A stretch of DNA of 64,000 nt from Fidelibacterota bacterium (lineage in GTDB: Bacteria > Fidelibacterota > UBA8477 > JABMPR01). The notes beneath the pieces are model-generated. The model was not told the DNA's origin. It ran no database searches and worked only from the letters and a program-made list of their open reading frames with translations. The stretch lies in contig JABIFX010000203.1 of assembly GCA_018650445.1 (NCBI GenBank), positions 1 through 64,000 on the forward strand, read 5' to 3'. Made by a program: the position numbers and the translations under genes. Shown one piece after another: positions 20,741 to 64,000 of the stretch (the first letter of the stretch is position 1; each line of letters opens with the position of its first letter).

Positions 20741-20741
20741 A

Positions 20742-22911: not shown

Positions 22912-22927
22912 ACTTTACCGGTTAAGT
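22912..22927. promoter_or_regulatory. Candidate LacI-family operator
   Basis: ACTTTACCGGTTAAGT is a 16-bp palindrome with one mismatched pair and a central CCGG. This is the form expected for LacI-family sites, which have a central CpG. It lies 27 bases upstream of the lacI ATG. A half-site, ATTAACCGG, follows at about 22961. Confidence 0.6.
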
Positions 22928-22967
22928 TACTTATGCGAAAAGAAAATACAATAGTTTCATATTAACC

Positions 22968-23097: not shown

Positions 23098-23115
23098 CCC
23101 TCAACGTCCTAGATT

Positions 23116-25323: not shown

Positions 25324-25355
25324 AATAAAACCCCCGATTTACATGCCGATCCTGA

Positions 25356-27065: not shown

Positions 27066-27079
27066 ATCTTTTATCTAAC

Positions 27080-28105: not shown

Positions 28106-28114
28106 AGTTTTCCC

Positions 28115-28759: not shown

Positions 28760-28773
28760 TGTGCTACACCTTA

Positions 28774-29109
28774 TTAAGCTTCGAGAAAATCCTCGCGCAT
28801 GGGTGAAAAAGTGTCAATGAGCACACCATCTTCAAGACAGATAGCCCCATGTTCGATACCACTTTCAATGACAAAGGCATCTCCAGCAGTTAGAATTTTC
28901 TTCTCACCGCCAAGATTCACTTCGAATGAGCCAGATTCCACATAGGTGACCTGTTCATGGCGATGTTCATGTACATACCCTTCAGCCCCTTTCTTGAACT
29001 CAACTCTAACCAGCATAAGATCTTTGGTATAACCTAGTATCTGACGATCCAGACCTTCCTGAATGTTTTCTACCAGTACATCACTGGATTTTACAAATTT
29101 CGTAGCCAT
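28774..29109 (-). CDS. kdgF: KdgF-like cupin, unsaturated uronate linearising enzyme
   Basis: A 111-aa single cupin. The metal ligands expected for KdgF are in place: H47, H49 and Q53 in GYVHEHRHEQVTYV, and H87 in GIEHGAI. KdgF speeds the opening of 4,5-unsaturated monouronates, released by PL17 or GH105, to the linear keto form (DEH from alginate). It sits between the MFS transporter and the KDPG aldolase. Length and position both fit. Confidence 0.88.
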   Translation of the reverse strand: MATKFVKSSDVLVENIQEGLDRQILGYTKDLMLVRVEFKKGAEGYVHEHRHEQVTYVESGSFEVNLGGEKKILTAGDAFVIESGIEHGAICLEDGVLIDTFSPMREDFLEA

Positions 29110-29119
29110 TCTTTCTCTC

Positions 29120-30427
29120 CTACTTAACAGATTCTAGTTTCCCACCGAAGAAAAAGACGGCGAGGACACCCAGTGGGACAAATAGCGCAATGATCACAAA
29201 GGCTGGGGTAAATGATTGTGATGTAAAGATCGGAATCAAGAAGTTCATGATGATTACTGAGAACACACCTACAGTACCACCCATGCCAGCCAATGATGCT
29301 ACAGAGGAGCCCTTCAGTATATCAGAAGGAATAGTCTGTACATTTCCAATGGAGAACTGGAAACCAAACAGTACGATAGCGACAATACCGACAAATTTCT
29401 CTGGTGTATCAGCAAAGAAGATGGTTGATACCAACCCAAGAAACATCAGAGTGGAGCCGATTGTGATAGCAGTTTTACGTGCAACACCAACTGCCTTACC
29501 ACTGGCAATAAGTTTACCACTATACCAGCCACCAGCCACAGAACCCAGGGCTGCACCGACATAGGGAACCCAGGCAAATGCACCGATTTCTTTAACATTA
29601 AAACCATATGTTGCTGCGAGATAGATTGGCATCCAACCTACAAACAACCACCAGATTGGTTCATGGAAGAAGCGGGCAATAAGCACTGACCATGAAGCCT
29701 TATGGGAAACAATCTCACTTATGGTCATTGCTTTTTCTTCAGTAGCATTATTATCAACTGCAGGTCTTCCACCCAGTATATATTTCTTTTCTTCTTCTGT
29801 GATCCAGGGATGGCTCTCAGGAGCAGATTTGTTGATGAGCATCCAGGGGATGATCCATAGCAAACCGAGGATACCAACTACAACGAATGTGACCTTCCAG
29901 CCGATGGCGATAAACATAAAAGCGATCAGTGGAGGTGAAATAACCGACCCAATGGAAGCGCCAGCGTTAAATAGTCCCTGTGCCACTGCACGCTCTTGCT
30001 GTGGAAACCATTCCGCATTGGATTTGACAGCTCCAGGCCAGTTTCCGGCTTCTCCAACAGCTAATGTGCCCCTGAAAATAGAGAAGGATAGAACTCCACG
30101 GGCCAGAGCATGAAACATGGTAGAAAGTGACCAGACAAAAATTGATAGCACGAAACCAATTCTGGTACCAACTTTATCAAATACGCGACCGGTTACAGAT
30201 TGTCCGATGGCATAAAAAACCATGAACACATTCAATATGATGGCATACTTTTGTTTCGCGATATCGGCGGTTGTATATCCAAGATCTTTGGCAATACAAT
30301 CCCCTTCTGCCCACCACATGACCCCCAGCGCGGATCGATCTATATAGTTAATGACTGTTGCCAAAGAAATGAGAGCGATAATCCACCACCTCAATCCTTT
30401 AATTTTTGTTCCTTCACTTGCGTTCAT
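29120..30427 (-). CDS. MFS transporter, anion:cation symporter family, likely hexuronate/DEH uptake
   Basis: A 435-aa protein with about 12 membrane helices. The first carries ATVINYIDRSALG, typical of the ACS (ExuT/GudP-like) subfamily, and GEAGNWPGAVKSNAEWFP is the ACS signature region. Members carry hexuronates and related sugar acids with protons. Located between PL17 and kdgF, it probably imports the unsaturated alginate monomer into the cytoplasm. Confidence 0.88.
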   Translation of the reverse strand: MNASEGTKIKGLRWWIIALISLATVINYIDRSALGVMWWAEGDCIAKDLGYTTADIAKQKYAIILNVFMVFYAIGQSVTGRVFDKVGTRIGFVLSIFVWSLSTMFHALARGVLSFSIFRGTLAVGEAGNWPGAVKSNAEWFPQQERAVAQGLFNAGASIGSVISPPLIAFMFIAIGWKVTFVVVGILGLLWIIPWMLINKSAPESHPWITEEEKKYILGGRPAVDNNATEEKAMTISEIVSHKASWSVLIARFFHEPIWWLFVGWMPIYLAATYGFNVKEIGAFAWVPYVGAALGSVAGGWYSGKLIASGKAVGVARKTAITIGSTLMFLGLVSTIFFADTPEKFVGIVAIVLFGFQFSIGNVQTIPSDILKGSSVASLAGMGGTVGVFSVIIMNFLIPIFTSQSFTPAFVIIALFVPLGVLAVFFFGGKLESVK

Positions 30428-30447
30428 AACAATCTCCTAGAGTATTT

Positions 30448-32649
30448 TTAGTTCCGGATGACTTTGTAATTTCCCTTCCAGGAGTATTCCATCCCGGAAA
30501 ATTCAACAGTATGTTCAGCATCAGCGTCAGCTTCAGCATTGTTTATCATTATTGTCCAGTATAGACCCTGCTCCCCTGTTACCTCGATGATAGAAGCCTC
30601 ACTATTATGACCAACCACTCTCAGTTCCTGAATGGTGGGGTGCACGGCAACAGATTTTTCACCAGCAAGGCTATAGTATCCATGTGGTTCCAGAACACTG
30701 GCGAACACCATATCCTTACCAGATGTTCTCGTAATGAGCACAGGTTCATTCCGCAGGTTAAACTTGGGATCGTTGGCCCCTGTCATTCCAAACAGAATCT
30801 TTGATTTTGTTGAAACATCTGTGATATATGAATAATACCGATGTCCATCCAACCAGGTTACCATGGCATCAGAAGTGACTGTAGCTTCAGCAGTTTTCCA
30901 GATATGTTCATATCCATTTGATCTACCAAGCGGTTTTTGAACCTGCTTGTCAGTCTTATAGTCAAAATTTGTGTTCATGATATAGCCCTTGTAATGGATG
31001 GGCATGTCATACTGATGTTGTTTATCAGATTCAACCCTATAGATATCCACCACAACGGGATAATCCAGACGCTGGTCCTTAATAAGAAACATGGTTCTTT
31101 GCATGCTCATGCCCTTATAGTGATCATCGGAGGTAGCACTCATTACCTGAACCTCTGAATCACTACCATCAAAGAAGTGACGATTTGCATGAACCTTATC
31201 GGCTGCTTTGCGGTTGCCTCCATTCTGAGAGATCCCGTCAACGACCAAGGTATTATGGGCAACGGTCTGCTTTGCATAGCTATTATTCTCAGGCAGATAG
31301 CGACCACCATATTTGGTTTCGATATTCACCCAACGTGCATACCCATAATCTGTGACCACATCTTCTCCCTGATCATAGAACATGAACTGCAACTTGTCAA
31401 AATGTCCGTGACCCAATCCATGACCACCATATTTCATAGCCAGAACTGTTTGGTCTTTGCCTTCACCTGTACGAAGGATACCAAAGCCACCATGTGTTCC
31501 ATCATCTCCATCAACAAACTCAATGCTGGACCAGGAAGGTTCCATAACTTCTACTTCTTGAGCAAATGCTTTTGCCAGCTTCAAGCCAGCACCATTAGGA
31601 TAGACTTCACCTTGAATCTTGGCCAGGCCAAGAAGATTTTTGTCGAACCCATAGCGATCAAGAATGACTGAGGTCCCATACATAACTCCTGGTGCAAGTA
31701 TATTCATACTTACACTGGCATCATTTATTGGAAAGAATTCTCCATTGGGATTGGTCATCTGAACCATGGAGTAGAATGCTTTTTTAATTATCTGATCCTT
31801 AAACTCATATATCTTCACAAAGGGTCTATTGCGCTCTAGAGCTTCAGCAAAGAACAGTAAAGGACGAATAGCATAGCGAACGTAGTAGGCACCTTCCATA
31901 TAGTAGCCATCAGGAGAAAAAAGATGTTCAACCTGTGCCAGAAAGCCACCTGTCCCATTATTCTCAGTTCCAAAAATAGCACGATTGACATATTCATCAT
32001 TGCCCATGGCCAGTCCGATCATACCAACTGAGGCCGTAGCCCACATCCCGTGATTATGGATCTGGTCAAATGCTTCTGCGTATTGGACTGAAAACAGTTC
32101 TACCATGGGGTCAAAGATCTTGTCTTCATATTTTTGGCGATCCTCTGGACTGAGCCAGTCATAAACGCAATCATAGGCCTGGGCAGTATTAAGGAGCCAA
32201 ACCGATTCGTTGAGAACCTGGTGAAAAAGACGACCAGGTTTCTGCTTGGCAGAAAGCGGATGGGGACCCAGTGTGGGATATAAAACAGCATATTCATCGA
32301 GCATGTTTTTTACGAAGTGAGCATAGGCTGTGTCACCAGTAAAGGTGTACAAATAGCCTGCATTTTTCATATCCCGGTAATTTTGTTTATGCCGCTCATG
32401 AGCATATCCACCTGCCTCACCAGGGAGAGGAACCTCCATATCAGAAACTATGGCCAGGTCAGCAGCTTCCCTCAAATCTTGATAACTGCTCTTTAAAAGC
32501 GGATACTTCTCAAGGTTTGAGACGACTTCCTGTGCCTCAGAGACGGATAAACTCAAGGAAGGATGTGAAGAGAGCTTTCCCTCCTGATCCTGGGAACACC
32601 CCAGAATCAGGAAAGACACAAACACAACAATGCTGTTAAATTTATTCAT
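30448..32649 (-). CDS. PL17 oligoalginate lyase, lipoprotein
   Basis: The ORF track begins at 32706, but the ATG at 32649 (MNKFNSIVVFVSFLILGC) opens on a lipoprotein signal and follows an AAGGGCGG ribosome-binding site. This gives 733 aa. Features of PL17 (Alg17C-like) are GGYAHERHKQNYRDM, FDQIHNHGMWATASVGM (Asn-His), the Tyr in GYYMEGAYYVRYA, GLGHGHFDKLQFMFY and TVAHNTLVVDG. The enzyme works exolytically on alginate oligomers and releases unsaturated monomers in the periplasm. The next genes are the transporter and kdgF. Confidence 0.92.
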   Translation of the reverse strand: MNKFNSIVVFVSFLILGCSQDQEGKLSSHPSLSLSVSEAQEVVSNLEKYPLLKSSYQDLREAADLAIVSDMEVPLPGEAGGYAHERHKQNYRDMKNAGYLYTFTGDTAYAHFVKNMLDEYAVLYPTLGPHPLSAKQKPGRLFHQVLNESVWLLNTAQAYDCVYDWLSPEDRQKYEDKIFDPMVELFSVQYAEAFDQIHNHGMWATASVGMIGLAMGNDEYVNRAIFGTENNGTGGFLAQVEHLFSPDGYYMEGAYYVRYAIRPLLFFAEALERNRPFVKIYEFKDQIIKKAFYSMVQMTNPNGEFFPINDASVSMNILAPGVMYGTSVILDRYGFDKNLLGLAKIQGEVYPNGAGLKLAKAFAQEVEVMEPSWSSIEFVDGDDGTHGGFGILRTGEGKDQTVLAMKYGGHGLGHGHFDKLQFMFYDQGEDVVTDYGYARWVNIETKYGGRYLPENNSYAKQTVAHNTLVVDGISQNGGNRKAADKVHANRHFFDGSDSEVQVMSATSDDHYKGMSMQRTMFLIKDQRLDYPVVVDIYRVESDKQHQYDMPIHYKGYIMNTNFDYKTDKQVQKPLGRSNGYEHIWKTAEATVTSDAMVTWLDGHRYYSYITDVSTKSKILFGMTGANDPKFNLRNEPVLITRTSGKDMVFASVLEPHGYYSLAGEKSVAVHPTIQELRVVGHNSEASIIEVTGEQGLYWTIMINNAEADADAEHTVEFSGMEYSWKGNYKVIRN

Positions 32650-32662
32650 GTGCGCACCGCCC

Positions 32663-33427
32663 TTAAGGCATGTAAAGTCCACCATTAACCTGGATACTTT
32701 GGCCATTCACATAGGCGCCCATATCTGATGCCAGAAATAGAACGACGTTGGCGATATCAATGGATTCACCAAGACGGCCTAAGGGCACCATTCCAGTAAC
32801 TTTCTCATGTACTTCAGGTGAGGTAAAAGTGTTGTGGAAGGCTGTCCCTGCAATAAATCCAGGAGATATAGCATTCACAGTTACACCGTGGCTTGATACT
32901 TCTTTAATGACTCCCTTTGTCATAGTCCAGATGGCACCCTTTGATGCTGCATATGCTGCGGCTCCAGGTCCACCACCATCATGGGCAGCTTGACTTGAAA
33001 AGTTGATAATACGTCCAGCTTTACTTTTGATGAGGTGAGGAATACATACTGAGGTCACCAGAAAAGCAGTTTTGACATTTACATTCATGATGGTATCAAA
33101 GTGGGCTTCATCAAATTCTGCAATGGGTACGCGTTTTATCAAACCACCAGCTACGTTTATTAAAATGTCCAACCCACCACCAAACTCAACTGCAGCATTA
33201 ACAAGATTGGTAACATCATCTTTGTTAGTACAATCAGCTAGAACACCAATGGCATCGCCGCCAGCAGTTTTTATTTCATCTACCTTGGCTTGTAAGGCAT
33301 CTGCATCCATGTGGTTATTCAAAACCACTTTTGCTCCTTGAAGTGCCAACAGTTTGGCTGTCTCGAAGCCTATTCCCTGGATACTTCCAGTTACTAGCGC
33401 AGTTCTCCCTTTTAGATCAGTACTCAT
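32663..33427 (-). CDS. SDR oxidoreductase, probable DEH reductase
   Basis: A 254-aa SDR with TGSIQGIG, an NVAGG variant of the NNAG motif, SS…YAASKGA and a classical C-terminus. It lies directly upstream of PL17 and in one operon with kdgF, kdgK and eda. No other enzyme in the alginate operon could reduce DEH (4-deoxy-L-erythro-5-hexoseulose uronate) to KDG, so this role is a strong contextual inference. Sequence alone only says SDR. Confidence 0.78.
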   Translation of the reverse strand: MSTDLKGRTALVTGSIQGIGFETAKLLALQGAKVVLNNHMDADALQAKVDEIKTAGGDAIGVLADCTNKDDVTNLVNAAVEFGGGLDILINVAGGLIKRVPIAEFDEAHFDTIMNVNVKTAFLVTSVCIPHLIKSKAGRIINFSSQAAHDGGGPGAAAYAASKGAIWTMTKGVIKEVSSHGVTVNAISPGFIAGTAFHNTFTSPEVHEKVTGMVPLGRLGESIDIANVVLFLASDMGAYVNGQSIQVNGGLYMP

Positions 33428-33518
33428 TGTGAATCCTTTCCGGTTTTAATCTTTTTATAATATATCATACTTATTTATTGCGGATCTTTATCCCAGTACA
33501 TCTACTAATCAATCCGCA

Positions 33519-34238
33519 TTATTGGTTTAAAATTTTATATGAATGTTCTTCGGCAACAGCCAGATGACCCATCATGGCTTCCCTGGCTCCTTCTGCATCC
33601 TGATCTTGGATGGCATCAAAGATCTTTTGATGAAAATCCACGGCTTCGCTAAGGGCGTTATCAACTGTGCTGTAAACAATAGTTCTGATACGTGGCATGA
33701 GACGGAATATTGGATCCATCTGTAGGGCAATGATGGGATTCTTGGTTGCTTCGCAGATCCTGAGGTGAAAATTCTGATCGATCTCTCCTTGATAGGCAGA
33801 GTCTAAGGCATCACTCTTTTTTAGATCTGAAAGGTTTTTTTCCAGAAACTTGACATCAGCTTCATTGCGGTTACGAGCAGCCATCCAGGCGATCTGAGGT
33901 TCAAACATTTTCCTCACCTCAACAACCTGAATGATTAGTTCGGAGTCCAAATTCATCTCGAGGTAACGACTCATGGGTTTTATAGCATGGGATGAGTTGT
34001 ACTCACTTACATAGATACCACTCCCCTTGCGGATGGTGATGAGACCCTGAATACTCAGCATCTGCAGAGCTTCCCTCAAAGCCGTACGACTGACACCGAA
34101 CATCTCACACATTTCTTTTTCGGTGGGAAGTTTGTCTCCTGGGATAAATTTTTTCTGGAGAATGGATTTCTCGATCTCACTTTGAATTTTGTTACTCAGG
34201 GTTTCAGTGTTGCCTACTTTGGAGTAAGTATACATCAT
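33519..34238 (-). CDS. GntR-family regulator, FadR/FCD subfamily
   Basis: A 239-aa regulator with a winged-helix domain (GDKLPTEKEMCEMFGVSRTALREAL … IRKGSGIYV, residues 11-78). An all-helical FCD domain follows, with metal/effector-binding His residues in DQNFHLRICEATKNP, HQKIF and GHLAVAEEH. FCD regulators respond to sugar acids, among other ligands. Inside the alginate operon it is the likely controller of the TGTATGACA sites found upstream of the TonB operon and the stand-alone PL6 genes. Its start overlaps the preceding lyase by four bases. Confidence 0.9.
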   Translation of the reverse strand: MMYTYSKVGNTETLSNKIQSEIEKSILQKKFIPGDKLPTEKEMCEMFGVSRTALREALQMLSIQGLITIRKGSGIYVSEYNSSHAIKPMSRYLEMNLDSELIIQVVEVRKMFEPQIAWMAARNRNEADVKFLEKNLSDLKKSDALDSAYQGEIDQNFHLRICEATKNPIIALQMDPIFRLMPRIRTIVYSTVDNALSEAVDFHQKIFDAIQDQDAEGAREAMMGHLAVAEEHSYKILNQ

Positions 34239-35515
34239 TTCTTTTCCTCGATATTCTGGCCCAAGTTCATTTCTACATAAGCCGATGTGGTCAGGATGTA
34301 TGGTGAATTAGGAAATGTGGAGCCAAGCGTTTTTAGTGCCTGTTTATAGCGTTCATCCGGCCATTTGGACTGGCAATATGCCAGTAGAAAAATCATTTTT
34401 TCGTTCGATCCAGCCATACTGGATATCTGGGTATGTTTCCAAGGCTGCTCATTAAGAGCAAATGGAATTAAATAGTCGATGGCCTGCTTCAAAGCAGAGT
34501 TGTCACTACCATGTTTTGATAGATCAATACCATAGCTGTCTGCCAATATAGCGGTGCGAACCAAGGCTGAAAGGTTGAATACAGAATAGCTATATGATTT
34601 GGTACGCCCCAATTCTTCGGGTTGTGCACCTGAACTCTCAAACTGTTTTTCGAAACGGTTCCTTTGAATACTTCCTGCAACCTCTCTACCTACTTCAGAA
34701 TTGCCGCAGTATAGACTTAAGGCCAACAGTTGGAAATCACACCAGGAACCATGGTTATTGGTGCGAGCCCGTTCCTGCTGGCCCAAGTCACTTGTCACTA
34801 ACCAATTTAAAAAATCTGTCATCCATGATTTGAATTTGAGATGATCTTCATCTGTCCAGTGGATGGATCCTTCTAGGAGAACCTCATATTCGGTAAGAAA
34901 AACAAAATTTCGTGATTCAATGATTCCCACTGACCTGCCATCTGAACGACCAGGAATAAATTGGCCATAATTCAAGTTAGGATTCATGCGGGTATCGGGA
35001 TTAAGGAACCAAACCTTCAAAAACTCGACTGCTTTTTGAGCGTACTTCTCGTCCTCCGTGAAATAATACATGAGCACAAAAGCTCTTACGGCCTGCGCCA
35101 TTGTAGCGCCTGGGACTTTATCAAATTGAACCCGCTCAGGATTAACTACACCATCTTGACGAATATAAGGCAGACCATCTTCTTTATCTGGATCTGGCCA
35201 CCAGTATGGCCCCATACTTGTGTAATCATGCATGTCCCCACTAGGTGGAGGATTGTTCTTATCCATGACCGAAGGTGGGTCGAGCTCCATTGCCATGCTG
35301 GTCTGTGATTCAAGGAGCTGGAAGGGAATAATAAATAGACTGTCTCCTGCAGCAATACCAGCTTTTGCTTGAGCAAGAGCTTGAACATTTAAAACCGTAG
35401 AGAATAGCTGATTTGTGCTATCAGCTACCAGAGGTGCCACTGGTTTAGATGCGCATGATTGCGCACCAATACCAAGCAGAATGAGAAAAGTCAATTTAAG
35501 GGAAATATTGAACAT
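34235..35515 (-). CDS. Alginate_lyase-superfamily protein (PL5/PL38-like), probable lipoprotein
   Basis: A 426-aa protein with a signal and a Cys at about 21 (GAQSC). The Alginate_lyase pattern matches that of the operon A paralogue: GPYWWPDPDKEDGLPYIRQDG, RMNPNLNYGQFIPG, ERARTNNHGSW and LGRTKSYSYSVFNL. It is probably an endo- or exo-acting alginate lyase, given its place between PL6 and the GntR gene. The two paralogues are clearly diverged, so they likely have different substrates. Confidence 0.78.
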   Translation of the reverse strand: MFNISLKLTFLILLGIGAQSCASKPVAPLVADSTNQLFSTVLNVQALAQAKAGIAAGDSLFIIPFQLLESQTSMAMELDPPSVMDKNNPPPSGDMHDYTSMGPYWWPDPDKEDGLPYIRQDGVVNPERVQFDKVPGATMAQAVRAFVLMYYFTEDEKYAQKAVEFLKVWFLNPDTRMNPNLNYGQFIPGRSDGRSVGIIESRNFVFLTEYEVLLEGSIHWTDEDHLKFKSWMTDFLNWLVTSDLGQQERARTNNHGSWCDFQLLALSLYCGNSEVGREVAGSIQRNRFEKQFESSGAQPEELGRTKSYSYSVFNLSALVRTAILADSYGIDLSKHGSDNSALKQAIDYLIPFALNEQPWKHTQISSMAGSNEKMIFLLAYCQSKWPDERYKQALKTLGSTFPNSPYILTTSAYVEMNLGQNIEEKK

Positions 35516-38220
35516 TATTTGATAACCGTCATTTTTGTCATATAATTCTCAATACCCGTACTCACCTTGCATAAGTATACGCCAGATTCAAAAGCATTGA
35601 GATTGAGAGTAAGTTTGTGTGCACCAGCTGTCAATTTGTGTGAAATGGGATGAAGAAGTTGTCTTCCAGTTAAATCGAAGAGTCGTACATCAACCTGACT
35701 ATCGCGTTCCAAGGATAATTGGAGGGTGGTCTCTCCATTAAAAGGGTTAGGATAATTGCTTAACAACTGATGAGAGCCAATGGGCTGATCATCAATTGAT
35801 TGAATAATGCTAGGATCATGGCGACGTCGATCTCCATATGCTACCCCTTGATTGCCTGGGTAATCATAGAGGACTGAGGCCGCTAGTAAATCAAACTGAC
35901 CTTCTGCTGGGTTTGAGAATAGTGGATCTTCATAAAGAATACCTTCTCCCAGAGTCACATTAGGATGCAGGGTTATATCTCCACAGGAATTCGCGTTGGT
36001 ATACATGATCTGCGACCACGAGTACAATTCCACCAGACTGGCGAACTGACTGGATTGAGAAAAAATGCTGTTCTGGATCGTAGCTACATCGACGTTGCGT
36101 GCATTAATCACAGGTACGTTGTCGTATCCGCAGTAATAGAAGGTACAATGATTCACCATAACCACTGGACCACCAGAAAAGGGATTCGTGTCTCCCCCAT
36201 AGATGCTGAGTACAGTTTTTGAGATGTTCCAGAAGGTGCAATCTTCCAAAAGAACCTGATTTGCACTATATAGTCCGCTTTCATCCTCAGTAACATCCAG
36301 TGCAAACACCTCACCATCAATATCTTGAAAATCACACCTGATGAATGCGAGTGAATCGGCAAAGCTTCCAGGATTAACCTCAAGCAGTGTGGCATCATCG
36401 CCTACTGCACCTATATTCTGGAAATTTACGTCCCTGAAGCCAAGAGAATACCATTGAGTCGGATTATCATAATTTGCATGAAATACTCTTTGAGTGCGTG
36501 TACCCAGAGTCCCACCACCATCAATGGTAACACCTGATATTTTTAGAATCCCGCCACCTCTCACATCAAACATGCTAGAGATAGCAGCCGCAGGGCGGAT
36601 GATAGGAATTTCATTGAGGGCTGGGTCGGGCAGGATGAGAATATCGCGATCAATTAGGACAGGCTCATCGAGGGTATACTCAGACCCTGTTAAAAATAAT
36701 GTATCTCCTGGTAGTATGAGTGCGGCAGCCTCAACCAATGTGTTTAAACCAGCCTCTACATAGATGTTGTCCGACTCGATATAGAACCAGTCTGGTCCTA
36801 CATCTTCTGCAAAAAGAGGCGAATAGACAATGGGATCAGAAGATACCTGGTCTGCGCCGATATCGCTTGAGACTCCCCTGGTCTGACCATCCATATCGGT
36901 GTCAATGGTGTAATCAAGTGTTGCAGCCTGACCTATCAGTGGACTTCCAGATTGTGGTCTGGCCAGCACATCACTTGTAAACTCAAATAGTGGATCCTGC
37001 CAGATGTTACCGTCACTGGTATCGGGAATCCCCAAGGCACTTCCAATAACCATATTTTGTAAAAAAGTAGTTCCCTCTGGCAATCCTTCAATGTCACCGG
37101 TGTAGAATACCGCACGATTACCGGCAAAAACTGCATTGTTGGCTATGGTATTATTGATTGGTGGTAGTGTCTGATCACTAGAGCTTCCATACCCCATCAA
37201 AAAGGATTGACGACAATCTATCAGGGTGTTGTGAGCGATAAGCGTATTCTCTACTTGAAAATATCTGTTAAGAGGTGAATCCTCCACTCCCTTGACCATG
37301 GTGATCGCAGAACGGTAGCCATTTCCCTGAAGGCCATGGAAGTAGTTGTTGATGATAGTGTGGTCAGTACCGATGATGCGGACGCCACCAGCCTCATCAT
37401 TGCCCTCGCCAATAAAGAAATTTCCCTCGACCAGACAACGATTACCATGTCTGAGCGTTAAAGTGCCTTCATTATCAATAAAGGTGTTGTTGAAGTAGAC
37501 ATTCTCGCAGGATTTGTTGGAGATTATTTCAATCTCACCATCGCAGCGTTCAAAAACATTGTGGCGTACGATGCTTCGGGAATTGGTCATTGACCAGGTA
37601 CTGGTACCGATACGGATGGTTTCTCCTCCGTTAAACCCCAGTGGTGGTCTGTATCCAAAATAGTTGTATTCGATAATGTGATGGTTATCTCGATCTTGCT
37701 CTTCGGAGAGCCAGATCACAAAAGTTGCACCATCATGATTTTTTCCTGCAAAATAGCAATGATCTACTTGATTGTTTTGTCCATACATGGAAACCCATTT
37801 GTAATTGTTTCCTATGCTGGAAGGGTTGTAGTTAAAAATTGTAGTATTGGTAAGTCGGCAATTGTTGGCTCTGGTTCCAGAGCGTCTAAACTCGATTACG
37901 CCACCACTACTTGGAGAGCCCTCTGAAAAGTTCAATCCATCGATGACAATGTATGAGCCTGAAAAATTTAGTTTTGAGTTCCCGGTTAGAATTACCTGTC
38001 CAGGAGTCTCAGCCAAGAGCACAACAGGATTTTCCTCGGTACCCACAGCGTGAAAAGAGATGGGTTGATCTGTCCAGACACCATTTTCCATAAGCATCGT
38101 ATCGCCTGGAGTCAGGCTACTCATGGCATTCTGAATATCCAAAGCACTGCTAACCGGAATGGTGGCAGCACTGGCACTAATTGCCAGTATGGCTACAAAT
38201 AGGTATCTGATGATTTTCAT
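35515..38220 (-). CDS. Two-domain PL6 alginate lyase with sorting tail
   Basis: A 901-aa protein: signal peptide (to about 18); PL6 catalytic beta-helix (about 20-470); a second beta-helix (about 485-800), as in AlyGC-type enzymes; and a C-terminal sorting domain (LLSNYPNPFNGETTLQLSL…GVYLCKV). The catalytic Lys and Arg are K236 (ISNKSC) and R257 (LTLRHG), 21 residues apart. NNYFHGL coil repeats and GGVRI are typical of the family. It is expected to be surface or secreted and to cut alginate. Its ATG lies just after a strong hairpin in the operon. Confidence 0.9.
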   Translation of the reverse strand: MKIIRYLFVAILAISASAATIPVSSALDIQNAMSSLTPGDTMLMENGVWTDQPISFHAVGTEENPVVLLAETPGQVILTGNSKLNFSGSYIVIDGLNFSEGSPSSGGVIEFRRSGTRANNCRLTNTTIFNYNPSSIGNNYKWVSMYGQNNQVDHCYFAGKNHDGATFVIWLSEEQDRDNHHIIEYNYFGYRPPLGFNGGETIRIGTSTWSMTNSRSIVRHNVFERCDGEIEIISNKSCENVYFNNTFIDNEGTLTLRHGNRCLVEGNFFIGEGNDEAGGVRIIGTDHTIINNYFHGLQGNGYRSAITMVKGVEDSPLNRYFQVENTLIAHNTLIDCRQSFLMGYGSSSDQTLPPINNTIANNAVFAGNRAVFYTGDIEGLPEGTTFLQNMVIGSALGIPDTSDGNIWQDPLFEFTSDVLARPQSGSPLIGQAATLDYTIDTDMDGQTRGVSSDIGADQVSSDPIVYSPLFAEDVGPDWFYIESDNIYVEAGLNTLVEAAALILPGDTLFLTGSEYTLDEPVLIDRDILILPDPALNEIPIIRPAAAISSMFDVRGGGILKISGVTIDGGGTLGTRTQRVFHANYDNPTQWYSLGFRDVNFQNIGAVGDDATLLEVNPGSFADSLAFIRCDFQDIDGEVFALDVTEDESGLYSANQVLLEDCTFWNISKTVLSIYGGDTNPFSGGPVVMVNHCTFYYCGYDNVPVINARNVDVATIQNSIFSQSSQFASLVELYSWSQIMYTNANSCGDITLHPNVTLGEGILYEDPLFSNPAEGQFDLLAASVLYDYPGNQGVAYGDRRRHDPSIIQSIDDQPIGSHQLLSNYPNPFNGETTLQLSLERDSQVDVRLFDLTGRQLLHPISHKLTAGAHKLTLNLNAFESGVYLCKVSTGIENYMTKMTVIK

Positions 38221-53352: not shown

Positions 53353-55671
53353 TTAATACATCAATTTGAGCTTGAGTTGTTGCTCCACACGAATCTCGCC
53401 TGATCCAGAAACTGTGTTTCCAGAGTGGTGATTATTCTTCGCACCCCATAGCACAGCAACCAATTTAACAGGATTGTTCTTAAAAATATTATTGCTAAGG
53501 TCCACGTTGATAATGCCCCTTGTTTTCAGCAGAATCTTTGATTTTTCCTTCTTTCCACAGTTTGTGAATTTTGAATTACTCACACTGAGAACACCACCAA
53601 TAGTTGATTCATCGTACCCGCCACGATAAAAATTCAGGACATTCTGACTGACATTGGCGAAGATTGAATTGCTAATGGTCACGAATTCAGCGTTATAGTC
53701 ACCTTTATCGTTGGTCTCGGCTGCTAACACAATTCCGTTCTCGCAATCACTAATTTTAGCATTTGCGATAGTGAGGGTATCAGCAAATGAGCCTTTGTGA
53801 CCTATTAGCACATGATCAAAGCCAGATATCTCAGCTCCTTCAATCCAAAGATTGTACCCTGGGGACATATCTTCCTTCAGTGTCTCAAAGGCATATTGCG
53901 AGCCTGATCCCTGGATTTTAATATTCTCCAGATGCAACTCTCCCCTGGGCTGCATTCGAAACAGGGGTGTCTCAGCAGGACCTTCATATTTGATGACACT
54001 TGGCTCCTCTCCCTCAGCACCACGCAAAGTGATTCTCTTATCCATGTTAAGAGATGCTGTCAATGTAAGCTCACCTGCAGGCAGAATGATGATATCACCT
54101 GCGGTAGTCGCATCGATGAATTCACCTAGAGATTTCGCAGCGGGATCGTACTCATGAATTGTGGGCACAATCATTTCATTTAACTGAAACCATTTTGCAC
54201 CATATTTCGAAGCATCTATGCTAGTAATCCCTGGTTTCCCCCCAGGCAGCATGGCGCCTACATTGTCATTGAGACCACGGATATTGCCAGAGATATCGCC
54301 GGCTATTTTATCAAACTCAAATCCAGAGTAAGTATGACCAAACTCTTTACTCTGCTCTAATTCTGGTGTCAACAACCAACTACTGACTTGTTTCATACCC
54401 AGGTCAGCGGTAGCAACACCCTCGTATCCGGATTCAACACCACCAGCATTGTCCAATAGATTGTTTCTAAATCGAATACCATCAACCTTGTCGTAGGATT
54501 GGATCGGATTTGGATCAGCAGTACGATTATAAATAATATTATTAGCGACCACAGTACGAATTGGCCTAGCAGAACGAATTTCACTTTTCGGGAGGACATC
54601 TTTCATATCCATATTGGCTCCCACCCCCAATTGCCAGGGGGCCTTACAATCAATCCAGGTGTTGTAGGCTACCACGACATCAGTCACTTGATTGTAGCGG
54701 TTCAGTGGCGATTTTGGGATGCCATTCATAATTGCCAGCGGGCTACGAAACTCTATACCACTAATACGATAGAAATAATTATTGATCACCCAGTGTCCTG
54801 TGTTGATGATTCGGACACCTCCATTAAACTCGGAGTCTTCGGATCCAATAAAGTAGTTCCCATCAATGATACAGTAATTCCCATGTCTCATTACCAGCGA
54901 GCCCTCACAGTGATAAAAAACATTGTTGCGAAATTCATTGAAGTTCGATTTACTGGAGATGACTTCTACCTCGCCATTACAACGATCAAAAAGATTATCC
55001 TCTACAAAAACGTAGGAAGGTGTCATGGATGTCCCACTATCGCCGATCTGCATGGTTTCACCTCTAGGTCCACCCTTGCGTGGTCTGGGACCAAAATAAT
55101 TATTAGCGATGCGATGATAGGTTCTAATAGATTCATTCCCCTTTAGGAATACCCTAACCGTTGGCCCCTGATTGGCTTTCCCTGTAATGGTACAGTTTTC
55201 CAGAGTATTGTGTCTACCCCAGAACTCGACCCAATGATCAGGAGTAAATCGGTTTTTCTGTGTAAAACCATCAATCACGCAATTGATAACACTGGAATGG
55301 TTGGCCATCCGCTCTTTATCTATACGGAAGTCTATGACACTATTAGAAGGGGTGAAACCATTTCTGAAGTACAGACCATCAACAATGAGATACTCACCTG
55401 ACAGTTCCAGAGATGATTGTCCCTCCAGGATAACTCCACCTGCTGTTTCAGCTTGGAGGGTGATGGGTGCATCCTCTGTTCCCTGTGCTTCAAATTCAAT
55501 TTCGACGTTCTCCCATACTCCATTCTGCATGATGATCTTATCACCTGGCTGTGCTTGTTCAATGGCTGCATTTAACTCAGCGAAATTGCTAGCCCGGTGA
55601 GTCAACCCATTTTCGGTTGAGCAGGTGAACAGCAAAATGCAAATACTCAGGAGGGCAATAATCTTTGACAT
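53353..55671 (-). CDS. Two-domain PL6 alginate lyase, lipoprotein
   Basis: A 772-aa lipoprotein (lipobox LLFTC, Cys17) without a sorting tail. The PL6 catalytic beta-helix (about 25-440) holds K241 (ISSKSN) and R262 (LVMRHG) with the family's 21-residue spacing, together with GGVRI and NNYFYRI coils. A second beta-helix (about 490-760) follows. The three PL6 enzymes here thus differ in anchoring: this one is lipid-linked, the others carry sorting domains. It is a single-gene unit with its own operator and terminator. Confidence 0.9.
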   Translation of the reverse strand: MSKIIALLSICILLFTCSTENGLTHRASNFAELNAAIEQAQPGDKIIMQNGVWENVEIEFEAQGTEDAPITLQAETAGGVILEGQSSLELSGEYLIVDGLYFRNGFTPSNSVIDFRIDKERMANHSSVINCVIDGFTQKNRFTPDHWVEFWGRHNTLENCTITGKANQGPTVRVFLKGNESIRTYHRIANNYFGPRPRKGGPRGETMQIGDSGTSMTPSYVFVEDNLFDRCNGEVEVISSKSNFNEFRNNVFYHCEGSLVMRHGNYCIIDGNYFIGSEDSEFNGGVRIINTGHWVINNYFYRISGIEFRSPLAIMNGIPKSPLNRYNQVTDVVVAYNTWIDCKAPWQLGVGANMDMKDVLPKSEIRSARPIRTVVANNIIYNRTADPNPIQSYDKVDGIRFRNNLLDNAGGVESGYEGVATADLGMKQVSSWLLTPELEQSKEFGHTYSGFEFDKIAGDISGNIRGLNDNVGAMLPGGKPGITSIDASKYGAKWFQLNEMIVPTIHEYDPAAKSLGEFIDATTAGDIIILPAGELTLTASLNMDKRITLRGAEGEEPSVIKYEGPAETPLFRMQPRGELHLENIKIQGSGSQYAFETLKEDMSPGYNLWIEGAEISGFDHVLIGHKGSFADTLTIANAKISDCENGIVLAAETNDKGDYNAEFVTISNSIFANVSQNVLNFYRGGYDESTIGGVLSVSNSKFTNCGKKEKSKILLKTRGIINVDLSNNIFKNNPVKLVAVLWGAKNNHHSGNTVSGSGEIRVEQQLKLKLMY

Positions 55672-56669: not shown

Positions 56670-59600
56670 TTAGCCCGATTCGTCTGGTATGCTCATGTAT
56701 GTTTCTATCTGTTCTTCAGACAATTCATAGGAACCAGCGTGAAGGGGAGCAGATTGAAATTCCCAAGATTTCAACTTAAAGTACTGACTACGACTATCTT
56801 CAACTACAACAGGACCTGTTAGGTGTCGTTCACGCTTTTCGCAATGATCGATTAATCCGGATAAAACACAACCTGTAATTCTATCTACCTGGAAATCCCC
56901 GAAAGGAGTCTCCCCCATTTGAGTCAGATATTTTTTCATTTCATCAGGCAGGAATGCCGAGACTCCAAATGGTGAATTTGATATTAGTACGCCACCCTCG
57001 GTGAAAAGGATATCCGCCGATTTGGTTAATCGTTCAACGGCATCATCAATTGAAAAACAATGTGGTCCAGAATCATCAACAATCATGCATCCTTTTTTTA
57101 AATGCTGAACATCTATCAAATCAGGGACATTTGTAGCACCAATGATCAGATCAGCCTCATAAATCCTCTTACTGACCCCACTTTCACTCAAAATGATATC
57201 CGCCTTCTTAAAATGAGGATATTTTTTGATCATCTCCTGCCCAAACAATTCGATGGCATTCTCATTGGTGAACAAATCTGCTAGCATGATTTCATGCAGA
57301 TCTGGCATTCGATCAAGCATGAGTTCCAATACTGACTTGCCTACCGATCCCAACCCCAGGAATGCAACCCGCAGATCATCTATCCTTCTGCCAGTCGTAG
57401 CCAACATTTTTTCAACAGCCAACAAAACACTTGCAGCAGTTACATCATGCCCGGTTGTGATATAGGGAAGCTTCGCATCAGCCCCCTTGATCAACTCAAC
57501 AATATCATGTCCATAGGCAGTAGCACTTGGGATGAGCCCGGTAAGCGAAATATGTGAGGCCCCAAGTGATTGAGAGAGCTCTATTGCTACCAGAATCTCT
57601 GATAGCAGACCTTGCTTATCAGAGTATATGCTCGAAGAAAATCTTGGTAGATGAATAACTCCAATTACTCCATGAGCCATGGTGATGTGATATCTCAAAT
57701 GCACACCAGAATCCGATAGTTGTAGAAAGCTCTCCTCAGTAAGGTCACTCCCTTCTATCATCGCATTCGAATAATAGCTTAAAGCAACTGAGTCAAGGGG
57801 TGCCAAGCGACCTTCTGATACAAGTGTTTCCAGTGGTTGATCATGGATATCAACGACATGTTTACTTGTTACTGTTGTTGACATTTTGGCTGCCGAGATG
57901 CCTGTCTTAGCTAAGGAGCGTTCGGGTTGTCCAATATGTGATGCAAAATCCGAGAGAGTTGGATATTGAAAAATGGTTTTAACAGAAACAGAACGCTTTA
58001 ACGCATTTGAAAGCAAGCTTGTTACCTGGATCGCAGAAAGTGAATCACCACCTGATTTGAAAAAGTGCTCCCGGGATGTCAGGATTTTCTTTTCCAGGAC
58101 AGTTTGCCAGATATCAGCACATTGTTTTTCTAAATCGCTAAATATTTCATCTGAGGCAATCGGGATATCAAAAGAGGGGTCTATGTTAACTAAGACCTTT
58201 CGATCGATTTTACCATTTACGTTCAATGGGAATCGATCCATAAATACAAAACTCGATGGGATCATATATTCAGGAAGTATATGTGAAATGCACTCCCTGA
58301 TATGCTCAGCCCCAGAGCTGTTTTCGCCAACGAGATAAGCGAGCAATCCTTTTCTTCCATCCCCGTACTCTTTATCCAATACAATGGCATCGCGCACATT
58401 TTCGACACGTTTGAGGGCTGTTTCTATTTCACCTAAATCAATCCGGTAGCCCCGTATTTTGACCTGAAAGTCTGATCTGCCTTTAAAAAACAGGTCTCCA
58501 CTTTCATCCCAGACACCCAAATCCCCTGTCCGGTACATTTTCCAGCCCACCTTAAATGGATCGTCAAGAAACCAGTTCTCATTGTCTAGCTCTCGGTTGA
58601 TATATCCCTGAGAAACACCTGCTCCAGCCAGATAAATCTCCCCTACCACACCCGGTGCAAGAAGTTGTCTGTTTTGGTCCAGAACATAGATCGCACAGTT
58701 GGCCACAGCCTGCCCCATAGGAATATCACCTTCAAGAGGACTATGTTTATCAACCTCCTGCATGGATCCGCAGACTGAAAATTCTGTCGGTCCATAGGCA
58801 TTGAAATAGCGATGCTGGCTTCGATAATATTCAACATCATCGATAATTGGCACATCACCGGCTGTCATGAGGAGTCGCAAGCTACCCAATGGTGCTCTTT
58901 CAAGAGTATGCAGATAAGCTGGAGGGAGAGTCACTACAGAAATACTTTTTGTTTGTATGAATTGAAGAAATTCAACAGGATCTGCGATAATATCATCTGA
59001 AGCAATTTCAAGCGTAGCACCCGAACATATCGCTTGAAATGTTTCAGCTAGTGCGGCATCAAAAGCGAAAGAAGCAAATTGCAGGATAACATCGTCTGGA
59101 CCAATCTCCAGACGACTGATTTGATGATTAATCATATTTACAAATGAATCATGAGAAACCAAAACCCCTTTGGGCACTCCAGTAGACCCTGATGTAAAGA
59201 TCAAATATGCTGAATCATCTGCCTGAACCGTTTCTCTCTCTAATGCTCCACCACTCAGTGATGCAATTGAAGAATATTTTTGGATCGAATATTTGTCACC
59301 ATACTCGTTGGCATATTGATCATCAACGATGAGAAGTTGCACATCCGATGCTTCAAGAATTAGCTGATTGCGCCGGACTGGTTCTTTTTTTTCAAGGGGA
59401 AGAAAAATGCCCCCTGCTTTCATAATGGAGAGCATAGCAATGATAGTGTCTTGAGTACGGTCCATGAGAACTGCAACAGGTTTCTGCCTGACAAAATCCT
59501 TATGGGTAGACAATCCCTCTGCATATTGATCAGAAATTGTTCTCAGCTCAGAGTAAGATATACTTGTGCTTCCATTCGCAATGGCTATAGCATTGGATTT

Positions 59601-62600
59601 CAGGGCGACGTGATCAAACAGCTGGCAAATTGTGAGAGGGTCTATTTGCTCCACTACCGGCCCCATTGACCAACCTAAGATTCGTTTTTTCTCATGCTCA
59701 GCAAGTAGTGGAAGGGTTGCGATTCTTGTCTCAGGTTGATCAAGAGCTGCGTCAGCAATAGTGACCCACTGCCGGAGCATAGCTTCCACACGGTCATTAT
59801 TGAATAGGTCTTTGCTGTAAGTAGCTGACAACTCAGCTCCTTTTGATGTGATGGATAGTTCAAAGGATAGATCCATGCGACTGCTGTTCATCTTTAAGGG
59901 AACAGATTCCACCTCTAACGCACCCAGAGCTGAATTGCTCTCAGTTTCCTCGTTGAGGGTAAGCATGATTCCAGATATTGGTGGACGATCAACAGTTCGA
60001 TCATTCTCGATAACATCTACTAATCTGTCAAACGGATATTGGCTATGTAATAATGCATTTTCTACGACCGCTCGAGTATGAAGCACATGATCATGGAAAC
60101 TTTTATTCAATTCAAGAGACAAAACCAGTGGTACTGTATTAAGGAACAACCCAACAGTATTCTCAATGGATGCATGAACTCGACCCGAGACCGGACAAAG
60201 CAGAACCATTTTCTCTTGCTGAGCCAAACGTCCCAATAGAACTGAGGTGATCGCTGTATACAGCGTATAGGGTGTAATGGACAATTCATGAATAAGTCCC
60301 ATCATCTTCAATTTTAGATGCTCGGGGAGGCTAATAGATACCGTGTCCCCTGCATAGCTGGGTTTAGCTGATCTTGAATGATCACGAGTTAGATCAAAGG
60401 CAGGAACACCTTGAGAGAAAAGCGCTTTCCAATGTTTCTCACTCTCCTTGAATACACCCTTTTTAATCCTCTCATTCAACCAAGCAGAATAATCCTTTTG
60501 CTGAATTTTGATATTTTTCAGGACCGGTTCATCTTTATGCTGGCTATACTTCTCGTATAGTTTACTGAACTCTTGCTCAAGGATGGTTATGGATGAGGCG
60601 TCGCAAATAATATGATGGATCTTCAATAACAGAAGGTGCTTATCCGGCTCAAGTCGCACCAGTACTAATTTCCAGAGTGGTGGTTTTGTTAAATTAAAAC
60701 CTTGCGACATCTCCTGGTAAACAAGCTCCAGCGCTTTTTGATAGCTACTCGTTGCCGCTTCAGAGCTGGATCTACCGTCAAGTCCGTTACTTGAAGTACT
60801 AAAATCATATTCAGAAATTGGGATCAAATCCAAATTGGATACTTTTTGATACGGAATACCACCGATCACTGTCATACTCGTCCTGAGAACCTCATGACGG
60901 GTCATAAGCTCAAGAAAAGATTTGTTGAAGGCATCCCGATCCAGAATTCCTTTTAGAATTGAGACACCGCCCATCAAATACAAGTGCCCATATTCAGGTT
61001 CCAGCTGATCAAGAATCCAGAATCTTTTTTGAGCATTAGAGACTTCGTATCGATCCTGCTTATCCAATGCTGGAATAGGTTGAGCGGAGGATTCTTCAGC
61101 CAGCCTGAGGCTCACAGCTAGATCAATCAGTCGGGGTTTATTGAATACTTCAAGCAGGGGGAGTTCGATTTTGGCTAATTTCTGGATACGTGAGACCAAA
61201 GCCATCGCTTTCAGGCTATGACCACCCAATTCAAAAAAGTCACTGTTTCGGCCTATGGCCTTCCCCGGAAACAACGCCTCAAATATCTTGGTCAATAATT
61301 TTTCCTCATCATCCTGAGGAGGGACCATCTCCGTTTGCTCTGGTTCGAATTGGGTCATGTTTTTCAGCAGTGCTTGTCGATCAACCTTACCACTTGTCGA
61401 AAGTGGAAAAATTTCGACCCGGTTATAGCTAGCTGGTAGCATGTATACTGGCAGCATCAATCGGGCTTGTTCCAAGAGCTCGCTGCCCCTGAAATCTTGA
61501 CCATCTGCAGCTAAAAAGGCGTGCAGCAGCTTCTGCTCTGAATCATAGACAACGACTGCCTGATCAATACCGTGTATCGTACTTAACTTTTGCTCAATTT
61601 CTCCAAGTTCAACGCGGAACCCTCTTATTTTGATCTGATTATCGTTGCGACCAAAATATTCCAGTGATCCGTCAGGAAGCCATCTGGCAATGTCTCCCGT
61701 GCGATAGTATCTACCTGTTATTTCCCCATCGTAGTCTCTGAATACAGCTCCAGTTTTCTGTTCATCACGCCAATAACCCCTGGCAACCCCTGCTCCACCG
61801 ACCAACAGGTCGCCCTGCACACCAATTGGTACAATGTGCCCGCTTTCGTTCACAACCTGGGCAGTCTCATTGAGAAGTGGCTGGCCAATTGTAACCGTAT
61901 CTGAAGTCACCTCACTTGCAGTGGACCATATCGTTGTCTCGGTGGGTCCATATACGTTCATGACCCTGGTCTCAGAAAATTGGCAGAGTTGTCCAGCCAG
62001 TTTCTTTGGCAAGGCTTCACCACCCACCAATATCACTTTCAATGTTTTTAAAATCTCCCAGTTATCACTTTCCATTAGAACAGCTAAATGGGAGGGCGTT
62101 ATCTGAATTGCAGAACAATTTCTATTTGTGATAAGCCGCAATATTGAATTTGGATCGAGAAACGAAGAGTCACCACTGATAACGATCTCGATCCCATTGA
62201 GCATTGCACCCAGAAGTTCTAATCCAGAGATATCAAATGTATAGGTCGTGAGGGCCAATAATCGATCAGTGTTAAAAAGTCCAAATCGATGTGACATATT
62301 TTCAAAAAATGAGAGCAAATTTCGGTGGGTGACCTCCACCCCTTTGGGCTTTCCTGTAGATCCAGAAGTAAACATTATGTAAGCACTATCGTTGGGATCG
62401 ATGGTGGGGAATATGGATTGAACCCGTTGTGAGTTGGACAGAGCATCTGTAAGCTGAATCACTGGATAAGATGTTACCAAGTCAGGTAATTCCATGTCGG
62501 TAAGGATCACTGTAGGTTCTGTATCCTCAAGAATGGTTTGAATACGTGCAATTGGGGTGGTTACTGACAGTGGTATATAGGAAGCTCCTGCTCTCAATAC

Positions 62601-64000
62601 GCCCAGAAGAATGGCCGGTAGATATCTACTCCGTGAGATCAGGAGCACTACTCTATCACCAGGACTCACATCATTGCCCTGAAGATATTGAGCAATATCA
62701 ATGGTCTGCTGGTAGACTGTTTGATAAGTGCAGCTCCCCTCCCCATCAGAAACTGCAACGCTTTCAGGCTGAACGGCACAGATCGCATCAAATGCTTCAA
62801 TGAGTGATTGGTGACTTGGTGGTTGCCTGTCGCCTCTCGAAAATGTATCCAGAATCAATTTTCTCTCAGCCACAGGGAGGAAGGAATGTTGGAATAGCGA
62901 GAGATCTGGATCGCTAACAAGCCTGTTGGCAATATGCTCAAGGCGTACTCCCAGATTTTCAATGTCCCATTTACTTAATCGATGTGGATCATATCCAAAT
63001 CGAAGACGAATCCTATTCTCTGGAAAAATTGAGACCTCGAGGGTGTAGTGTGTTTGCTCATGAATAGCATAAGTGTCCGCCTTTATGCCAGGAAGAAATT
63101 CCTTATTCTCATCATTCCCATCCTGTCCACCCTCAAATACAAGGATATGTTGCAGAAGATCCTTACCAGCTTCTGTATAAGTTTGAATGTCGGCCAGCGG
63201 TAAATATTGATGTTCGTTGATCTCGGCAAATCCAGCTCTGGACTGTTGTAGCAAGTCAGCAAAACTATTGTCGCCAATTTTTACTCTGAAAGGAACCGTA
63301 TTAATAAAGAGGCCAAGCATATATTTTGTACCCTGAAGCTCAACGGGTCGACCATTGATCGTTACTCCATAAACCACATCATTTCTATTTGTCAGGTAAG
63401 AGAGCAGGACACCCCATATTGAAAGCATCACCTGATTCTGTGTTACACCAAACTCTCGGGCAATGCCTTCGATTTTCTGCGTCAATGATGTCCCAAATCG
63501 GATCGAGTGCTGCTCCAACTGAGCTCCAGGGGCAATTGATCCAGCTGTTGATGGGATCTCACATTTCCCTTTGTATCCAGACAGATAGGTCTTCCAGAAT
63601 TTCTTATCCGAACTGAAATCTCGATCCTTCCACCATGCCAAATACCTGGCGTATGACGGAACAGCTTTCAGGACAGGTGATTCATTATTCTGACGGGCGC
63701 GGTAGAACTCATAGAGATCATGATGCAGGATGGGGAAGCTCAGACCATCCATTAACAGGTGATGAAAGCTGATGATCAGCTCATAGGTATTGGCAGAAGT
63801 TCTGATTAGATGGCTTCTGAACAGATTCCCCTTAGAAAAATCACACCCCTGTTTGAGATCTTCACTCATCAACCTTTCGATCTCATGATCTTGAAACTGG
63901 GTCTGCTGATCTGACAGATCGGTGAACTTCCACAGACTTTTCTTTTGCTTGAGGAATACCATGAGAGGTTGTGGGACATTCCTGGTTGTCACAATTGTTC
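56670..64000 (-). CDS. Two-module NRPS with C-terminal acyl-ACP-reductase-like domain (N-terminus outside window)
   Basis: At least 2440 residues; the frame is open to the window edge. Domains in track numbering: C1 (HHLLMDG at 77), A1 (TSGSTGKPKG at 542, YGPTETTIW, A10 SGKVDR), T1 (GGHSL at 923), C2 (HHIICDAS at 1126), A2 (TSGSTGVPKG at 1600, NAYGPTEFSV, NGKIDR), T2 (GGDSL at 1981), then about 390 residues with LTGLIPSATAYG, GHDVTAASV and a Rossmann motif GLGSVG (2213). This last part recalls cyanobacterial acyl-ACP reductases rather than the usual NRPS reductase or thioesterase. Reading the binding pockets by eye gives DILQLGVIW for A1 (glycine-like) and DAATMAAVC for A2 (aromatic-like). 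The product is perhaps a peptide aldehyde. No other NRPS gene is seen in the window. Confidence 0.85.
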   Translation of the reverse strand, partial: TIVTTRNVPQPLMVFLKQKKSLWKFTDLSDQQTQFQDHEIERLMSEDLKQGCDFSKGNLFRSHLIRTSANTYELIISFHHLLMDGLSFPILHHDLYEFYRARQNNESPVLKAVPSYARYLAWWKDRDFSSDKKFWKTYLSGYKGKCEIPSTAGSIAPGAQLEQHSIRFGTSLTQKIEGIAREFGVTQNQVMLSIWGVLLSYLTNRNDVVYGVTINGRPVELQGTKYMLGLFINTVPFRVKIGDNSFADLLQQSRAGFAEINEHQYLPLADIQTYTEAGKDLLQHILVFEGGQDGNDENKEFLPGIKADTYAIHEQTHYTLEVSIFPENRIRLRFGYDPHRLSKWDIENLGVRLEHIANRLVSDPDLSLFQHSFLPVAERKLILDTFSRGDRQPPSHQSLIEAFDAICAVQPESVAVSDGEGSCTYQTVYQQTIDIAQYLQGNDVSPGDRVVLLISRSRYLPAILLGVLRAGASYIPLSVTTPIARIQTILEDTEPTVILTDMELPDLVTSYPVIQLTDALSNSQRVQSIFPTIDPNDSAYIMFTSGSTGKPKGVEVTHRNLLSFFENMSHRFGLFNTDRLLALTTYTFDISGLELLGAMLNGIEIVISGDSSFLDPNSILRLITNRNCSAIQITPSHLAVLMESDNWEILKTLKVILVGGEALPKKLAGQLCQFSETRVMNVYGPTETTIWSTASEVTSDTVTIGQPLLNETAQVVNESGHIVPIGVQGDLLVGGAGVARGYWRDEQKTGAVFRDYDGEITGRYYRTGDIARWLPDGSLEYFGRNDNQIKIRGFRVELGEIEQKLSTIHGIDQAVVVYDSEQKLLHAFLAADGQDFRGSELLEQARLMLPVYMLPASYNRVEIFPLSTSGKVDRQALLKNMTQFEPEQTEMVPPQDDEEKLLTKIFEALFPGKAIGRNSDFFELGGHSLKAMALVSRIQKLAKIELPLLEVFNKPRLIDLAVSLRLAEESSAQPIPALDKQDRYEVSNAQKRFWILDQLEPEYGHLYLMGGVSILKGILDRDAFNKSFLELMTRHEVLRTSMTVIGGIPYQKVSNLDLIPISEYDFSTSSNGLDGRSSSEAATSSYQKALELVYQEMSQGFNLTKPPLWKLVLVRLEPDKHLLLLKIHHIICDASSITILEQEFSKLYEKYSQHKDEPVLKNIKIQQKDYSAWLNERIKKGVFKESEKHWKALFSQGVPAFDLTRDHSRSAKPSYAGDTVSISLPEHLKLKMMGLIHELSITPYTLYTAITSVLLGRLAQQEKMVLLCPVSGRVHASIENTVGLFLNTVPLVLSLELNKSFHDHVLHTRAVVENALLHSQYPFDRLVDVIENDRTVDRPPISGIMLTLNEETESNSALGALEVESVPLKMNSSRMDLSFELSITSKGAELSATYSKDLFNNDRVEAMLRQWVTIADAALDQPETRIATLPLLAEHEKKRILGWSMGPVVEQIDPLTICQLFDHVALKSNAIAIANGSTSISYSELRTISDQYAEGLSTHKDFVRQKPVAVLMDRTQDTIIAMLSIMKAGGIFLPLEKKEPVRRNQLILEASDVQLLIVDDQYANEYGDKYSIQKYSSIASLSGGALERETVQADDSAYLIFTSGSTGVPKGVLVSHDSFVNMINHQISRLEIGPDDVILQFASFAFDAALAETFQAICSGATLEIASDDIIADPVEFLQFIQTKSISVVTLPPAYLHTLERAPLGSLRLLMTAGDVPIIDDVEYYRSQHRYFNAYGPTEFSVCGSMQEVDKHSPLEGDIPMGQAVANCAIYVLDQNRQLLAPGVVGEIYLAGAGVSQGYINRELDNENWFLDDPFKVGWKMYRTGDLGVWDESGDLFFKGRSDFQVKIRGYRIDLGEIETALKRVENVRDAIVLDKEYGDGRKGLLAYLVGENSSGAEHIRECISHILPEYMIPSSFVFMDRFPLNVNGKIDRKVLVNIDPSFDIPIASDEIFSDLEKQCADIWQTVLEKKILTSREHFFKSGGDSLSAIQVTSLLSNALKRSVSVKTIFQYPTLSDFASHIGQPERSLAKTGISAAKMSTTVTSKHVVDIHDQPLETLVSEGRLAPLDSVALSYYSNAMIEGSDLTEESFLQLSDSGVHLRYHITMAHGVIGVIHLPRFSSSIYSDKQGLLSEILVAIELSQSLGASHISLTGLIPSATAYGHDIVELIKGADAKLPYITTGHDVTAASVLLAVEKMLATTGRRIDDLRVAFLGLGSVGKSVLELMLDRMPDLHEIMLADLFTNENAIELFGQEMIKKYPHFKKADIILSESGVSKRIYEADLIIGATNVPDLIDVQHLKKGCMIVDDSGPHCFSIDDAVERLTKSADILFTEGGVLISNSPFGVSAFLPDEMKKYLTQMGETPFGDFQVDRITGCVLSGLIDHCEKRERHLTGPVVVEDSRSQYFKLKSWEFQSAPLHAGSYELSEEQIETYMSIPDESG

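Follow-up and report, generated by a model that had tools for sequence, protein, structure and literature searches.

The NRPS encoded at the far end of the window (the whole 64,000-nucleotide stretch of DNA analysed, bases 1-64000 of a 74422-base contig in a Neomarinimicrobiota genome of 3.9 Mb) terminates in a domain that is a divergent addition to a recently described family, that of the TAD from the carmabin pathway; on present evidence it is not a new release mechanism. Judged from its sequence, the domain is probably a carmabin-type terminal amidation domain with the fold of acyl-ACP reductase (AAR), standing in for the thioesterase, and would release the peptide as a C-terminal amide. 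An undescribed mode of release by reduction, suggested in the initial annotation, finds no support: the nearest characterised relatives of the domain terminate cyanobacterial NRPSs that make products bearing a primary amide, and since a homologous NRPS terminal domain is represented by five PDB entries released in 2025, a domain of this family has already been solved and the present one is not undescribed.

The reading frame of the NRPS gene is open, and Pfam gives the domain order C-A-T-C-A-T, after which the TAD/AAR-like domain follows (Table 1). The domain is real where it had been placed (56670-57850), except that its outer edge lies approximately 25 nt further out than 57850, and all motifs quoted for it earlier (LTGLIPSATAYG, GHDVTAASV, GLGSVG, GPHCFS and GGVLISNS) are found in its sequence. 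Nothing significant was detected by Pfam C-terminal to the last carrier domain. With Pfam and NCBIfam, the ~400 residues beyond that carrier domain match neither an alpha/beta hydrolase (thioesterase) nor an SDR or thioester-reductase model, as the initial annotation had supposed; the GxTGxxG start is also absent from the domain. Searches of the NRPS genes in both Neomarinimicrobiota clusters, this one and that of the sister species, likewise revealed no release domain of the thioesterase or SDR type. The only NCBIfam matches in the domain are weak and of Rossmann type, the best being PigE (E 5e-8) and SbnB (E 9e-6). The acyl-ACP reductase model TIGR04058 (family cut-off 449.7 bits) has no match in the domain up to E 1 and none in the genome; weak matches in sister genomes were set aside as not AAR, being broken by stops or far under the cut-off.

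Table 1. Features of the terminal NRPS gene and of the genes beside it (window coordinates unless stated otherwise).
Feature	Position	Strand	Remarks
Terminal NRPS gene	56670..64000; start outside the window at contig base 64136	-	2488 aa
Adenylation domain 1	61359..62789	-	Pfam; code D-I-L-Q-L-G-V-I-W-K, read by eye
Carrier (T) domain 1, FFELGGHSL	61104..61286	-	Pfam PP-binding
Condensation domain 2	59676..61061	-	Pfam
Adenylation domain 2	58191..59651	-	Pfam; code D-A-A-T-M-A-A-V-C-K, read by eye
Last carrier (T) domain, FFKSGGDSL	57933..58115	-	Pfam PP-binding
Terminal domain, TAD/AAR-like, 401 aa	56673..57875	-	Full-length homology to carmabin-pathway TAD (9e4s/9e4x)
TTGH motif, residues 140-143	57447..57458	-	Counterpart of AAR TTGN; invariant in family
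GLGSVG dinucleotide-binding loop, residues 174-179	57339..57356	-	
Asp200, end of second beta strand	57276..57278	-	Invariant in family, lacking in AAR
Cys273 of DDSGPHCF	57057..57059	-	Invariant in six aligned family members; no AAR counterpart
GGVLISNS	56973..56996	-	Aligned with AAR GGVVEHCF (Cys271), not with the acyl-binding Cys
Cys336 of ITGCVLSG, candidate nucleophile	56868..56870	-	Aligned with AAR acyl-binding Cys294; invariant in six aligned members
ParA/MinD-like ATPase and DUF697 genes	L008 2205-2939, 2951-3928 (contig bases 64205-65928, just past the window)		
ParA/MinD-like ATPase and DUF697 genes, sister species	L002 1947-3671		

Homology to the carmabin TAD extends over practically the whole domain. 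A phmmer search of the PDB returned 9e4s (also 9e4u) and 9e4x (also 9e50 and 9e56) at E ~5e-67 and 34.5% identity, residues 7-392 of the 401 in the query corresponding to residues 23-408 of the chain. The molecule in 9e4s and 9e4x is named 'Amino acid adenylation domain protein', and the entries, released on 2025-02-26, are titled 'TAD from Carmabin Biosynthetic Pathway', alone, with NADH and with NAD; one title reads 'with Disulfide between Cys2238 and Dephosphocoenzyme A'. Two invariant cysteines of the window domain (273 and 336) are possible counterparts of Cys2238. In a tree of eight rows, with long branches for AAR and PigE and a partial row for PigE, the window domain, the carmabin TAD and a protein from Pantoea fall together with support of 100/100, and AAR and PigE stand apart. 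Like the carmabin TAD, then, the domain ends an NRPS and shows full-length homology, both invariant cysteines, the NAD-type Asp, GLGSVG and DDSGPHCF; it differs in sequence (34.5% identity) and in its host, a member of the Neomarinimicrobiota as against the cyanobacterial source of carmabin (Lyngbya/Moorena in the cited literature).

In Rossmann folds of this sort, an Asp at the end of the second strand usually marks NAD(H) binding. From the invariant Asp200 the cofactor of the window domain is thus predicted to be NAD(H), not NADP(H), which agrees with the complexes of the carmabin TAD with NADH and with NAD.

The abbreviation TAD is not spelled out in the entry titles; 'terminal amidation domain' is our own expansion, which fits the product and the account in PMC10949194. 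According to that paper the NRPSs for hectoramide B and the vatiamides carry, after the last PCP and in place of a thioesterase, a domain of ~434 residues annotated as terminal amidation and believed to release the chain by that reaction; the products of these pathways have a primary amide end, as carmabin A does, the dragonamides and vatiamides E/F also terminate as amides, and the mechanism of the domain was called unstudied in 2024. The window domain resembles these 'amidotransferase' domains of VatR (vatiamide) and HcaD (hectoramide B) in its place after the last PCP, its length (theirs being ~430 aa) and the lack of a thioesterase (PMC10949194), a likeness of description, homology to VatR and HcaD being taken to run through the carmabin TAD.

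The domain is also, as far as sequence comparison goes, a distant relative of AAR and PigE, and the initial assignment to an AAR-like superfamily is right. A profile built from six relatives finds (hmmsearch) PigE (4ppm, E 1.6e-11) and the Synechococcus AAR structures 6jzu, 6jzq and 6jzz (E ~6e-6 to 7e-6), and hhalign against the Synechococcus AAR (96.5%, E 8.7e-10) aligns 255 columns, pairing FAC294FAE of AAR with ITGC336VLSG. The sequence and numbering of AAR were compared residue by residue with the PDB chain: Cys271 lies in GGVVEHC and Cys294 in FACFAE. It is Cys294 that binds the acyl group (PMC9594044). The earlier remark that the acyl-binding Cys appears to be absent, with GGVLISNS at its position, is therefore mistaken, since the comparison had been made with Cys271; the true counterpart, Cys336, is present in all six aligned members. 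The further Cys seen nearby in GPHCFS is indeed there, as Cys273. PigE (Cys296) and TamH (Cys887) have a cysteine at the same place and reduce thioesters to aldehydes (PMC8341465, PMC9594044), TamH being described as NADH-dependent.

With the cyanobacterial AARs (6jzq/6jzu/6jzy/6jzz) the window domain shares the fold family, the TTGx motif and the aligned cysteine, but identity is ~20%, and AAR is a stand-alone enzyme of fatty acyl chains that has neither the Asp at the NAD position nor DDSGPHC, which in the form DDSxP[HY]C is a mark of the family. PigE and TamH are likewise natural-product enzymes with an AAR-like reductase domain; theirs, however, are fused to an aminotransferase and convert fatty-acid-like thioesters to aldehydes, and the similarity is far weaker. 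With the classic NRPS reductase (R) domain, an extended SDR of another superfamily, only the place at the end of an NRPS is shared. AlphaFold models (pLDDT 36 from one sequence, 42 from two) were too poor to place residues; Foldseek scores obtained with them (TM ~0.3) are not evidence, and that search served to supply titles for entries already found by sequence.

By analogy with Cys294 of AAR, Cys296 of PigE and Cys887 of TamH, we infer that the completed peptide, held as a thioester by the last carrier domain, would be transferred to Cys336, in a pocket beside bound NAD(H), and that from acyl-Cys336 the peptide would be set free as a C-terminal primary amide. NAD(H) might serve in a redox-neutral path, in which the thioester becomes an aldehyde, ammonia adds to give a hemiaminal, and this is oxidised back to the amide; we know no other example of such a path among NRPS release domains. 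Alternatively, the cofactor might be a structural relic, with release by plain ammonolysis. Release as an amide is suggested by the full-length homology to the carmabin TAD, the fully supported grouping in the tree, the amide products of TAD-bearing pathways, Asp200, purifying selection on the domain, and the lack of a thioesterase or SDR domain. Counting against it, no gene for supplying ammonia was seen among the NRPS genes or their neighbours; moreover, the level of identity to the carmabin TAD is no proof of the same chemistry, and the farther relatives PigE, AAR and TamH make aldehydes.

It is this last point that keeps an aldehyde route in play, the outer relatives being true thioester reductases. 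If the window domain were one too, the peptide would be held on Cys336 and reduced with NADH, leaving as an aldehyde or, after imine formation, as a cyclic imine. The fold and the position of the acyl-binding Cys are as in AAR, and the cysteines of PigE and TamH occupy the same place in enzymes with aldehyde products; yet in sequence the window domain lies closer to the carmabin TAD than to AAR or PigE, carmabin has an amide end and AAR lacks the DDSxP[HY]C mark, all of which makes reduction rather unlikely. An inactive remnant, or a domain capable of hydrolysis only, with an unlinked thioesterase performing the true release, is a good deal harder to credit. Room for a type II thioesterase is left by the scope of the search, which covered the NRPS genes of both clusters, but the Cys and NAD site are conserved, an intact copy of the domain is present in each of two species in the genus, and purifying selection on it, as in the catalytic domains, equals that on the rest of the protein (dN ~0.10, dS ~0.65). 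As for an amino-acid dehydrogenase or SbnB-like domain unconnected with thioester chemistry – the fold that would have undone the AAR-like reading – the SbnB match mentioned above and weak Pfam matches to AlaDH/FolD point that way, all in the Rossmann part. They are far weaker than the TAD match and confined to the cofactor half, whereas TAD matches over the full length and AAR can be aligned with the Cys region; the sequence searches did not bear this identity out, and we dropped it as highly improbable.

It is possible, though we regard it as doubtful, that members of the AAR-fold release family differ in their chemistry, those outside cyanobacteria, this one among them, releasing an aldehyde or imine by way of the AAR-type Cys, in which case a single fold would have both amidation and reduction as outcomes, or that amidation runs redox-neutrally on NAD(H).

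The fusion is not confined to this gene: a search found it in the carmabin NRPS, in the NRPS of the sister species (L002; 82%) and in a PKS/NRPS of Streptomyces fungicidicus. Within the phylum, 2 of 245 genomes carry the terminal domain, and these two belong to one genus; a match in a third genome (G150, L007) was rejected as a chance resemblance, the protein being UDP-sugar dehydrogenase-like. No relative was detected in the viral contigs scanned. On a plasmid of Pantoea stewartii a stand-alone TAD-like gene lies beside a two-gene NRPS, the last module of which ends in A-T without a release domain; this arrangement suggests that the TAD-like protein acts in trans. The same cluster (NZ_CP046586.1, L003 9689-31113) also encodes KS-AT-ACP and a MupA/Atu3671-type monooxygenase. 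On plasmid p1 of S. fungicidicus (L004 9207-20984) the TAD-like domain is at the C-terminus of a 3925-aa PKS/NRPS, in which a condensation-like domain lies between the last carrier and TAD-like domains. Streptomyces sp. NBC_00470 has a divergent relative adjoining an ACP and a ketosynthase.

Codes of the adenylation domains were read by eye from a motif alignment with the GrsA positions. That of the first is close to the glycine code DILQLGLIWK, and that of the second is predicted to be aromatic-like; as a prediction only, this suggests a peptide ending in Gly followed by an aromatic residue. A second NRPS gene upstream has the order A-T-C-A-T-E, and its second module contains a methyltransferase-like insert. 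In both species the two NRPS genes are separated by a ParA/MinD-like ATPase gene and a gene for a DUF697 membrane-protein-like product; a partitioning-type ATPase within an NRPS operon is unusual. Upstream, the sister cluster (G233 contig 36) has an Asn-like A domain (prediction only) and a KS-AT-T-aminotransferase module. The latter, with a class III aminotransferase (L009 2117-6823), is part of the same assembly line and presumably belongs to the kind that produces beta-amino acid units. A polysaccharide-breakdown region adjoins the NRPS cluster (window 3332-6280, 18266-38220 and 53353-55671), comprising several genes of chondroitinase-B-like, heparinase II/III-like, alginate-lyase-like and GH2 type whose products carry Por secretion tails, as well as a TonB-type receptor.

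What is new here is the presence of the TAD family in the uncultivated marine phylum Neomarinimicrobiota, in Pantoea (stand-alone) and in Streptomyces (fused). Pfam and NCBIfam both lack a model that names the family, and annotation built on these collections therefore leaves such NRPS ends blank. C-terminal amides aid the survival and cell entry of peptide drugs; the relatives from Neomarinimicrobiota, Pantoea and Streptomyces extend the range of the family well beyond cyanobacteria and provide divergent members for work on its mechanism.
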